Of a stretch of DNA of 64,000 nucleotides, positions 2,151 through 3,783 are shown piece after piece. Both the position numbers and the translations under genes were made by a program. The notes under the pieces were generated by a model. The model searched no databases, was not told where the DNA came from, and worked only from the letters and a program-made list of their open reading frames with translations. Source of the stretch: a bacterium SCSIO 12643 (GTDB lineage: Bacteria > Bacteroidota > Bacteroidia > Flavobacteriales_G > Salibacteraceae). Location: positions 3,038,001-3,102,000 of the forward strand of contig CP073750.1 in NCBI GenBank assembly GCA_024398135.1, read 5' to 3'. How positions within the stretch are numbered: position 1 is the stretch's first letter; each line of letters begins with the position of its first letter.

Positions 2151-2594
2151 TTAAAGCGATGTCGGAGCAGCTTCTTCCTTTTTCACAGGACTTGTAGTTT
2201 CCTTAGGTGCAGCTGAAATATTTCCAGTGATACGAATTACTTTGGTCGGTGCGTTTGTAGCATTTGAAGTAATAGTAACCGATTTATTGATAGGTCCAAC
2301 TCTTTTAGAATCATATTTTACTTTGATTACTGCTGTAGCACCTGGAGCGATAGGCTCTCTTGGCCATGTTGGAACAGTACATCCACAAGAACCTTTAGCA
2401 TTAGAAATGATTAATGGTGCATTACCAGTGTTTGTGAAAACAAACTCAGTAGTTGCATTACCATATTGTTTGATTTTACCGAAATCATGTACATCTTTTT
2501 CAAATGTAATTTCAGGACCACCTACTTGTTGTTGTGCAAATGTCCCAAGTGCAAATGCTAAAATGAATCCTAGTGCTAATGTTACTTTTTTCAT
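2151..2594 (-). CDS. Secreted DUF1573 domain protein with charged tail
   Basis: 147 residues: a signal peptide (about 1-20, ending LGTFAQ), a DUF1573 domain closely matching the 127-residue paralog (EITFEKDVHDFG, FVFTNTGNAPLIISNAKG, SCGC, YDSKRVGP), and a 20-residue Lys/Glu/Pro/Thr tail the paralog lacks. A -7 box TACATTTG (TAnnTTTG) lies at 2628-2635 on the minus strand, about 35 nt before the ATG, so the gene has its own promoter downstream of the two predicted small RNAs. Shared motifs indicate a tandem duplication. Molecular function unknown; the protein is expected in the periplasm or at the outer membrane. Confidence 0.88.
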   Translation of the reverse strand: MKKVTLALGFILAFALGTFAQQQVGGPEITFEKDVHDFGKIKQYGNATTEFVFTNTGNAPLIISNAKGSCGCTVPTWPREPIAPGATAVIKVKYDSKRVGPINKSVTITSNATNAPTKVIRITGNISAAPKETTSPVKKEEAAPTSL

Positions 2595-2710
2595 ATCTTT
2601 TAAAATTTGGGTTGGTTTAACTTAAAGCAAATGTATTCAAATCTTTGAGAGTTAAAAACCAAATAACATATCATTAACACGGAAATAAAGTGAAGAAAAT
2701 TTGTGGCTTT

Positions 2711-2747
2711 TAAAAAGCAAAAGGTCATTTGTGTGGACAAATAACCT
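2711..2747 (-). terminator. Intrinsic terminator ending predicted small RNA 2
   Basis: Read on the minus strand: AGGUUAUUUG, loop UCCACA, CAAAUGACCU (10 pairs including one G-U), then UUUGCUUUUU. No annotated gene sits just upstream, so it most likely ends a short untranslated transcript. Confidence 0.65.
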
Positions 2748-2869
2748 CTTCTTCTTGGAATCAATGGGTTTGTACATGATTGACTAAGACAACCTACAAT
2801 TGAGCCATCTGCTCAAACAATTGATTTTAATCACCAAGTAGTTAGCTTTTTCCATAGTGAATAACAATC
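2711..2869 (-). ncRNA. Predicted small RNA 2 (about 155 nt) downstream of palindrome-promoter P2
   Basis: This is inferred from a promoter/terminator pair with no convincing gene between. The transcript would start near 2869, just after a TAGATTCG box, and end at the terminator 2711-2747. It contains a hairpin TTGAGC / GCTCAA at 2800-2816 with a 5-nt loop. A 23-codon ORF (2784-2855, ATG start) is present but has no Shine-Dalgarno and no recognisable product, so a peptide is possible but not favoured. The unit is the second of two with the same promoter geometry. Confidence 0.5.
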
Positions 2870-2874
2870 GAGGG

Positions 2875-2921
2875 CGAATCTAGCCTCAAAACAAATACAA
2901 AGCAATAGGGGATATCCCCTA
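2875..2921 (-). promoter_or_regulatory. Palindrome-promoter P2
   Basis: A perfect 16-bp palindrome TAGGGGATATCCCCTA (2906-2921) abuts a minus-strand TTG (2903-2905), followed by exactly 20 nt and TAGATTCG (2875-2882), one mismatch from TAnnTTTG. The palindrome can be read as a 7-2-7 inverted repeat (TAGGGGA-TA-TCCCCTA), the arrangement used by NarL-type dimers. Its centre lies near -43 from the expected start site, an activator position. Confidence 0.65.
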
Positions 2922-2956
2922 ATTTCTGGAAAATAATCGGAACAAAAAGGAGGAAT

Positions 2957-2986
2957 AAAAAAAGGAGTTGAACATCAACTCCTTTT
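2957..2986 (-). terminator. Intrinsic terminator ending predicted small RNA 1
   Basis: Perfect stem AAAAGGAGTTGA / TCAACTCCTTTT with 3-nt loop at 2960-2986; seven U on the minus strand against four T on the plus strand, so it acts leftward. Confidence 0.8.
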
Positions 2987-3058
2987 AATGGATTTAGTAG
3001 ATCATGCTCTAGTTTAGGTTTGATAGGTTCATTAATTTGCTCTCCACTTCAAATTAAT
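2957..3058 (-). ncRNA. Predicted small RNA 1 (about 100 nt) with 5' hairpin displaying GGAGAG
   Basis: The transcript would begin near 3058 and end in a terminator at 2957-2986. Its 5' end folds into a perfect 9-bp stem (3050-3058 with 3031-3039) and a 10-nt loop AAGUGGAGAG. Immediately after is AUG of a 7-codon ORF (3009-3032; MNLSNLN) whose AU is in the stem, so the loop could be a ribosome-binding site for a tiny leader peptide or a purine-rich protein/RNA-binding loop. No longer ORF exists. It could be a regulatory RNA or a leader-peptide attenuator. Confidence 0.55.
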
Positions 3059-3062
3059 AATA

Positions 3063-3109
3063 CAAATGTAAGGCGCGCATACCATGCCTACAATAGGGGA
3101 TAACCCCTA
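3063..3109 (-). promoter_or_regulatory. Palindrome-promoter P1
   Basis: Near-perfect palindrome (plus-strand TAGGGGATAACCCCTA, 3094-3109) abutting a minus-strand TTG (3091-3093), then exactly 20 nt, then TACATTTG (3063-3070), a perfect TAnnTTTG. Same design as P2, 188 bp away. The flanking AAT...ATT also matches P2. Confidence 0.7.
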
Positions 3110-3144: not shown

Positions 3145-3783
3145 CTACAGGTATGCCTTGTTTTTAGAAGCCCACGAGAATAGACTGTGCTTCTTAGAAG
3201 TGAGATCTAATTTCTTGATGATATTCGATCTATGATTGTCCACAGTCTTAGGACTAATGAAAAGTATTTCACCAATTTCCTTTGACGTTTTTTCCTGACC
3301 AATTAATCTCAAAACCTTCCGTTCTGTACGACTCAATTTATCAATATTCGGATCTTTATCCTGATCGGGATTGATATACGTTTTAAGTTGTTCTGAATAA
3401 TATGGTTCGTTATTTTCAAAATGCGTCAAACAACGATTAATTTCAATATTCGCAAAATCTTTAAGTAAGTATCCGTCCGCCCCAGCGTCTATGGCTTCCA
3501 ACATATAGCGTTCTTCTTTATGAGAAGTCAGAATAGCGACCTTAGTGTCAGGCGTATGCTTTTTAATTTCTTTTAAAACTTCAATGCCATTGATTCCAGG
3601 AAGTTCTAAGTCAATGATAGAAATATCCGGTACATGTTGCTTGGCTAAAAGAACGGCATCTGTACCATTCGTTGCCTCACCTACCAGTCGGTAACCTTTG
3701 ATATTGTCAATAATTCCTCTCAGACCAATGATGAGGAGAGGATGGTCATCTGCGATGAGAATATTTTTCGTAGTGTTGTTCAA
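3145..3783 (-). CDS. Orphan response regulator, NarL/LuxR type
   Basis: 212 residues: a receiver domain (about 5-120) with acidic pair Asp12-Asp13, phospho-acceptor Asp58 (SIIDLELPG), Thr86/Ser87 and Lys108, and a LuxR-type helix-turn-helix (about 148-208; LSRTERKVLRL, then FISPKTVDNHRSNIIKKL). No kinase gene is adjacent. The start must be TTG (3781-3783): an in-frame TAG lies three codons upstream and no in-frame ATG precedes the receiver core. A -7 box TATATTTG lies at 3814-3821 on the minus strand. Downstream are two palindromic operator-promoters suited to a dimeric NarL-type activator; that this protein binds them is inference from proximity and site symmetry. Confidence 0.9.
   Translation of the reverse strand: MNNTTKNILIADDHPLLIIGLRGIIDNIKGYRLVGEATNGTDAVLLAKQHVPDISIIDLELPGINGIEVLKEIKKHTPDTKVAILTSHKEERYMLEAIDAGADGYLLKDFANIEINRCLTHFENNEPYYSEQLKTYINPDQDKDPNIDKLSRTERKVLRLIGQEKTSKEIGEILFISPKTVDNHRSNIIKKLDLTSKKHSLFSWASKNKAYL

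Follow-up and report, generated by a model that had tools for sequence, protein, structure and literature searches.

A putative palindromic operator beside paralogous NarL/FixJ-type response regulators and candidate small-RNA genes in a Bacteroidota genome

Introduction

Why should two short, gene-poor units with the same promoter layout lie in tandem beside a response-regulator gene that has no evident partner kinase? The question is raised by a locus of the bacterium SCSIO 12643 (Bacteroidota; Flavobacteriales_G; Salibacteraceae), found in a 64,000-nucleotide stretch of its genome (contig CP073750.1, positions 3,038,001 to 3,102,000) that we refer to as the window. An earlier note on this DNA had proposed that the regulator activates two small RNAs through a shared palindrome. 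Here, we follow the palindrome through the genome of the window (G000) and through other Bacteroidia genomes; genomes and loci are referred to by our own G and L numbers. Sequence comparison gives good support to an association between this type of regulator and the palindrome as its putative operator, and an RNA output of the units beside the regulator is probable.

Results

Two leftward units share one layout

The gap between the regulator gene, designated RR1, and a DUF1573 gene contains two leftward units (Table 1). Each consists of an exact TAGGGG-N4-CCCCTA palindrome, an abutting TTG, 20 nt, a TAnnTTTG-like -7 box, and an intrinsic terminator, just as the earlier note had described. Starts of the predicted RNAs u1 and u2 were placed near 3058 and 2870 by setting the -7 box at -12 to -5, as has been described for F. 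psychrophilum (PMC9723704). With these predicted starts, the TTG occupies -35 to -33 and the center of the palindrome lies near -43.5. Between 2590 and 3150, the terminator scan found four terminator-like hairpins against 0.5 expected; two of the four are the palindromes themselves.

The claim that neither unit contains a real gene also held. Inspection by eye found ATG ORFs of only 7 codons in u1 and 23 codons in u2, which fall below the 30-aa floor of the program-made ORF list, and two further ORFs (41 and 54 aa) overlap u2 at its end together with the terminator. The window carries tandem DUF1573 genes (1587-1970 and 2151-2594), and each of two congeneric genomes has one DUF1573-like gene there (L116, L117).

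Table 1. Features of the RR1 locus (window positions) and further operator sites of the genome (G000 positions)
Feature	Location	Strand	Description
RR1, NarL/FixJ-type response regulator	3145..3783	-	212 aa, TTG start
Operator 1, TAGGGGTTATCCCCTA	3094..3109	-	Exact palindrome, 35 nt past RR1 stop codon
-33 element TTG, unit 1	3091..3093	-	Read from sequence
-7 box TACATTTG, unit 1	3063..3070	-	At N20 from TTG
Predicted RNA u1	2954..3058	-	About 105 nt; ends inferred from boxes and terminator
Terminator-like hairpin, u1	2960..2986	-	Terminator scan
Operator 2, TAGGGGATATCCCCTA	2906..2921	-	Exact palindrome, 223 nt past RR1 stop codon
-33 element TTG, unit 2	2903..2905	-	Read from sequence
-7 box TAGATTCG, unit 2	2875..2882	-	At N20; 5/6 TAnnTTTG matches
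Predicted RNA u2	2712..2870	-	About 159 nt; ends inferred
Terminator-like hairpin, u2	2719..2750	-	Terminator scan
TACATTTG box	2628..2635	-	Probably promoter of the DUF1573 gene itself; similar box in congeners' gap
DUF1573 protein gene	2151..2594	-	Downstream; excluded from module
Site C	G000:544271		Predicted RNA of about 85 nt, two hairpins and terminator
Site D	G000:2444270		One-mismatch operator, 8 nt past RR2 gene
Site E	G000:2666344		Between divergent genes; directly 5' of 63-aa hydrophobic ORF

The palindrome is set in a promoter of fixed register

The argument that such a layout is unlikely by chance is borne out by the whole genome. Four exact palindromes occur in its 4.12 Mb, against 0.07 expected under a first-order Markov model built on the window sequence, and a reversed-pattern control gave no exact match in the same genome. 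A fifth genomic site differs by one mismatch. When up to three mismatches are allowed, the window contains three palindromes versus 9.8 expected; this lack of enrichment confines the signal to exact sites. In each of the five genomic sites, whether exact or one mismatch away, 5 or 6 of 6 bases agree with TAnnTTTG at a distance of exactly 20 nt from the TTG. At sites with three mismatches in 20 loci (L020-L039), the -7 box reaches at most 4/6 and none is good; five more three-mismatch matches in the genome have no entered locus and lie outside this set of 20.

Together with six sites from other genomes (see below), which have 4 or 5 of 6 matches at this spacing, the 11 sites score 53 of 66 matches to TAnnTTTG at spacing 20 and no more than 30 of 66 at every other spacing from 8 to 35, with the reservation that L110, L114, and L120 are related promoters and the 11 sites are not independent. 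Two singletons, in G003 (4/6 at N20) and G261 (3/6; L112), were excluded from the 11; their inclusion gives 60/78 by hand count. The comparison supports the view that the putative operator is embedded in a promoter of the Bacteroidota type.

Because the genome holds at least five such promoters, the two units of the gap are only part of a set. The stretch after site D is predicted to be a strongly folded RNA (139 nt, z -5.5; L014:1552-1690) and is followed by a 176-aa ORF whose C-terminus is hydrophobic. The fold predicted at site C covers 82 nt (z -3.4), and among the sites of this genome a link to type IX sorting is seen at C alone.

RR1 and RR2 are paralogues

RR1 contains a receiver domain (PF00072, 100.1 bits, cut-off 30.2) followed by a GerE/LuxR helix-turn-helix (HTH) (PF00196, 59.7 bits, cut-off 23.5), and its best matches among sequences of solved structure are EvgA and NarL. 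Its apparent start codon is TTG at window position 3783. Among the regulators of the genome, the closest paralogue of RR1 is RR2, with 49% identity overall and 66% in the HTH. Residues D12, D13, D58, T86, and K108, which we take to be the phosphorylatable aspartate and switch residues of the phospho-pocket, are identical in both proteins. RR1 and RR2 are sisters (support 97/88) in a 39-row tree, from which one regulator locus with an unclean frame (L043) and regulator matches lacking an entered locus were omitted. Two weak relatives found by a scan of genome contigs were set aside. The gene for RR2 comes after that for a 681-aa TPR/HisKA_3/HATPase kinase, and no kinase was found beside RR1 among the neighboring proteins examined.

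No homologue of RR1 above 39% identity was found in 34 other genomes of the family that were searched. A search with RR2 across 395 Bacteroidia genomes gave matches at E <= 1e-38 in 33 of them, its own genome included. The congeners G001 and G002 have aldehyde-dehydrogenase, aminotransferase, DUF1573-like, and aspartate-aminotransferase-like genes in the order of the window. RR1, u1, and u2 are absent together from this locus in both genomes, and the best matches to RR1 there have 32% identity.

Variant operators lie past related regulators in another family

The relaxed pattern TAGKGG-N4-CCMCTA-TTG occurs in four of the 395 Bacteroidia genomes: G000 (4 sites), G228 (2), G383 (2), and G261 (1). 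These nine sites barely exceed the reversed control, which gave six sites in five genomes (one with two; counted by hand). Since raw counts do not discriminate, the case stands on register and adjacency. Within the genus of G228 (36 genomes, the same set as its order), the motif was found in four genomes, G228 (2), G383 (2), G430 (1), and G432 (1), all of which belong to a different family from the window genome. In each of the four, a site sits 47-264 nt past a regulator gene. Examples are TAGTGG-TTAC-CCACTA-TTG, 264 nt past the regulator in G228 (L081), and TAGGGG-GTAA-CCACTA-TTG, 47 nt past that in G383 (L083). The recognition helix of the outside regulators reads SPNT(V/I)DNHRSN, compared with SPKTVDNHRSN in RR1, and their genes are preceded by kinase genes, seen as ORFs at L120 and L121 and by eye in the upstream DNA at L081 and L083. 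Variant operators therefore recur beside related regulators in these four genomes; neither congener (G001 or G002) has an exact operator-TTG site.

Counting RR1 and RR2, the site lies just 3' of the gene for six regulators in five genomes, which strongly supports the palindrome as the operator to which this regulator group would bind. The proposal of a circuit joining regulator and operator stands to this extent. The circuit is not private to RR1: the operator is also present at RR2, which has a kinase, the genome contains three further sites, and elsewhere the operator lies ahead of protein genes. Indeed, Pfam models identified the products of genes past four of the six outside sites as Por_Secre_tail (L110, L120) or Laminin_G_3 (L111, L121) proteins. 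A collagen-repeat gene is next in L110; judged by eye, the gene in L114 resembles that in L110 and the gene in L113 encodes an apparent signal peptide. The outside sites precede protein genes, several of them for apparently secreted products, and the operator class is therefore not specific to RNA.

A weight-matrix scan of 29 regulator-homologue loci for weaker operators gave strong scores at L081 and L083 only, both of which are among its training sites. In L105 (G060), the degenerate sequence TGAGGGTCAACCCCTA lies 47 nt past the regulator stop codon, the distance seen in L083, L120, and L121. Its score of 7.6 is at about the 99% point of shuffle maxima, and spacing 19 gives it a better -7 box than spacing 20. 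L105 is only suggestive of a weak operator beside a regulator homologue.

The units at RR1 are most likely small RNAs

Each of u1 and u2 has, by sequence, its own promoter and its own intrinsic terminator. This organization, together with internal ORFs of just 7 and 23 codons, makes regulatory small RNAs the most likely identity of u1 and u2; action in trans is plausible. Their predicted folds are modest and consist mostly of the terminators (z -2.3 and -2.5; 2 of 200 shuffles were as good in each case). A DNA search of the genome for relatives of u1 and u2 returned, apart from the units themselves, two matches to the operator and one resembling a terminator. The last of these, at G000:988848, was rejected as an RNA relative: it is a similar terminator, located just 3' to a protein ORF. 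A seed common to u1, u2, C, and D was rejected as well, the longest shared word being 9 bases of terminator T-run. Rfam gave no match at the gathering threshold in the whole window; below threshold the best E value at the units was 0.09, and a search of loci C, D, and E at looser limits matched nothing. We thus set aside assignment of u1, u2, C, and D to a known RNA family, none having an Rfam match over threshold.

Attenuated leaders or tiny mRNAs are possible for the units, and both readings are live. The first would make the terminated units 5' leaders with attenuators, read through on a signal into the type IX-tail gene (C), the 176-aa ORF (D), or DUF1573 (u2). It fits C and D best. Unit C with its terminator is upstream of the Por_Secre_tail gene, which starts 43 nt beyond the hairpin; D combines strong folding with no clear terminator that we could see; and in the other family the operator directly precedes protein genes. 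At the RR1 locus, however, u1 runs into its terminator and then operator 2, with no gene next. DUF1573 probably has its own TACATTTG box, which is kept in congeners that lack u2, and TATTTTTG, noted by eye, is a possible box for the type IX-tail gene itself. As an account of the terminated units in general, we consider attenuated leaders unlikely.

The second reading, in which the regulator would control mRNAs of tiny proteins of 7 aa (u1), 23 aa (u2), and 63 aa (site E), fits E best, where the hydrophobic ORF directly follows the site. A short ATG ORF is present in u1 and in u2, but 7 codons in a unit of about 100 nt are too few to convince, unit C contains ATG-TAA only, and neither the 63-aa ORF nor the 176-aa ORF past D matched a Pfam or NCBIfam model. 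Taken over all units, this possibility seems to us distinctly improbable.

The palindrome is best assigned to this regulator group

The operator might instead belong to another regulator, its place past response-regulator genes being secondary. The tree gives some ground for this. The six operator-bearing regulators fall in two separate clades, the four outside regulators forming one apart from RR1 and RR2; no bootstrap tree (0%) unites the operator bearers, and the tree requires two changes of the operator label. The operator could be an old property that was lost or altered elsewhere, or it could have been reached twice. Moreover, a single exact operator with TTG is present in another genome of the same family, G003 (L006, L013; 5588-5606 of L013), in which no orthologue of RR1 or RR2 was found. 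Against this, of the six or seven genomes that bear a site, five have one past a regulator of this type, and both such regulators of the present genome have one. Ownership by another regulator is therefore very unlikely in our judgment. It is hardly tenable that the palindromes form terminator hairpins in RNA or belong to a dispersed repeat. A consensus scan does score them as terminator-like and three lie 8-35 nt past a stop codon, but no T-run is next to them on the sense strand, similarity stops at the promoter, the genes flanking site E diverge, and all 11 sites keep the TTG-N20-box register.

Discussion

Assignment of the palindrome to RR1 and RR2 leads to the following model. Phosphorylated RR1 and RR2 would act as activators rather than repressors. 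Their dimers would bind TAGGGG-N4-CCCCTA set against the -33 TTG, in a class-II-like position near -43.5, and would recruit sigma-A polymerase to the TTG-N20-TAnnTTTG promoter. At the RR1 locus, two tandem promoters would yield the terminated RNAs u1 and u2, whose role is most likely regulatory. The same promoter type would serve the C RNA (upstream of the type IX-tail gene), the structured D RNA, and the 63-aa ORF at E. RR1, which lacks a kinase of its own, would receive phosphate most likely through cross-talk from the TPR histidine kinase of the RR2 operon, or from another kinase. On balance, we favor this account as a whole, including its small-RNA output.

It is tempting to speculate further that the locus represents a branch of Bacteroidota two-component regulation with RNA output. 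In this scheme, the two members of a duplicated response-regulator pair have a promoter-proximal operator in common; the copy without a kinase forms a cassette together with two small-RNA genes of its own; and the operator, of a class that precedes secreted-protein genes in other genomes, was rewired to small RNAs without CsrA. We offer this scheme tentatively, as somewhat more doubtful than an even proposition.

The nearest parallels are the GacS/GacA-RsmXYZ and BarA/UvrY-CsrBC systems of Gammaproteobacteria, in which the RNA genes are not known to lie beside the regulator gene and the rsm/csr RNAs sequester CsrA. The likeness to the present locus extends to regulator family, palindrome, and small-RNA targets, the last being predicted here. 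CsrA/RsmA (PF02599) was not found in this one genome, which is 97.9% complete (3 of 14 controls were positive, including E. coli), and a reading of the units as CsrA-titrating RNAs was rejected for this reason. The UvrY/SirA/GacA model NF007018 scores RR1 at 121.2 bits and RR2 at 107, far below its cut-off of 280, so that neither is an orthologue. In the portions of the published accounts consulted, GacA and UvrY are NarL/FixJ-family regulators that activate more than one small-RNA gene through a palindromic operator (PMC4682653, PMC2375449). The earlier note's remark that the circuit was not recognized from described systems was therefore too strong in kind. The 18-nt GacA/UvrY palindrome lies far upstream of the promoter, as far as those portions describe it, whereas the 16-bp palindrome here abuts the -33 element with its center near -43.5; the UvrY site at csrB, given there as TGTGAGAGATCTCTTACA, is centered at -183/-182, and IHF helps (PMC4682653). 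With the GacA model far below its cut-off, no CsrA, and an operator that differs in sequence and place, the predicted RR1/RR2 module works like GacA-Rsm and is not a member of that system.

With its 7-2-7 dimensions, the 16-bp inverted repeat would fit a NarL-type dimer. NarL-type dimers bind 7-2-7 inverted repeats, and the NarL heptamer differs in sequence from the half-site found here. RR1 scores 128 bits with the NarL model NF007935 (cut-off 250).

Several points of comparison come from Bacteroidota. Sigma-A promoters of this phylum have a -33 TTTG and a -7 TAnnTTTG (PMC7366714, PMC9723704). The promoters described here share TTG and TAnnTTTG-like boxes; they differ from the general type in that all 11 sites have a spacing of exactly 20 and an operator abuts the -33 element. 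PorXY-SigP ties two-component control to type IX secretion (PMC7712824). RR1 matches the PorX model in the receiver only (51.9 bits versus 300), and the genes past the operator, as annotated, carry type IX tails rather than encode the secretion machine. Small RNAs described in the phylum include GibS of B. thetaiotaomicron and Rfp18 of F. psychrophilum (PMC7366714, PMC9723704). The parts of these accounts consulted name no dedicated response regulator for them. Among the matches listed in an open-access literature search, none describes such an operator or regulator-RNA arrangement in Bacteroidota.

The case offers a testable operator, an exact promoter geometry, a candidate regulon of five sites in one genome, and, in another family, a set of loci for comparison. 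Should the RNAs prove real, the locus would provide a compact system in which to ask how regulator-operator pairs move between protein and RNA targets.

Two further observations concern RNA-like elements. The predicted C RNA (L010:4321-4410) contains GCCCCTAA twice, with one copy in the terminator loop, as well as a GGGGAG hairpin loop, and CCCCTAAT complements the half-site ATTAGGGG of the operator as well. These sequences could serve in pseudoknot pairing, as a seed, or as extra regulator half-sites. In the congeners, the gap between the aminotransferase and DUF1573 genes (L116:2762-2836; L117) contains a well conserved RNA-like element that is distinct from u1 and u2; a 24-base core of it has no match in the window even when three mismatches are allowed. 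Besides a TATATTTG box of its own, the element comprises two hairpins and a terminator rich in T (z -5.9 for L116), and it is a candidate small RNA at the place that RR1, u1, and u2 occupy in the window.
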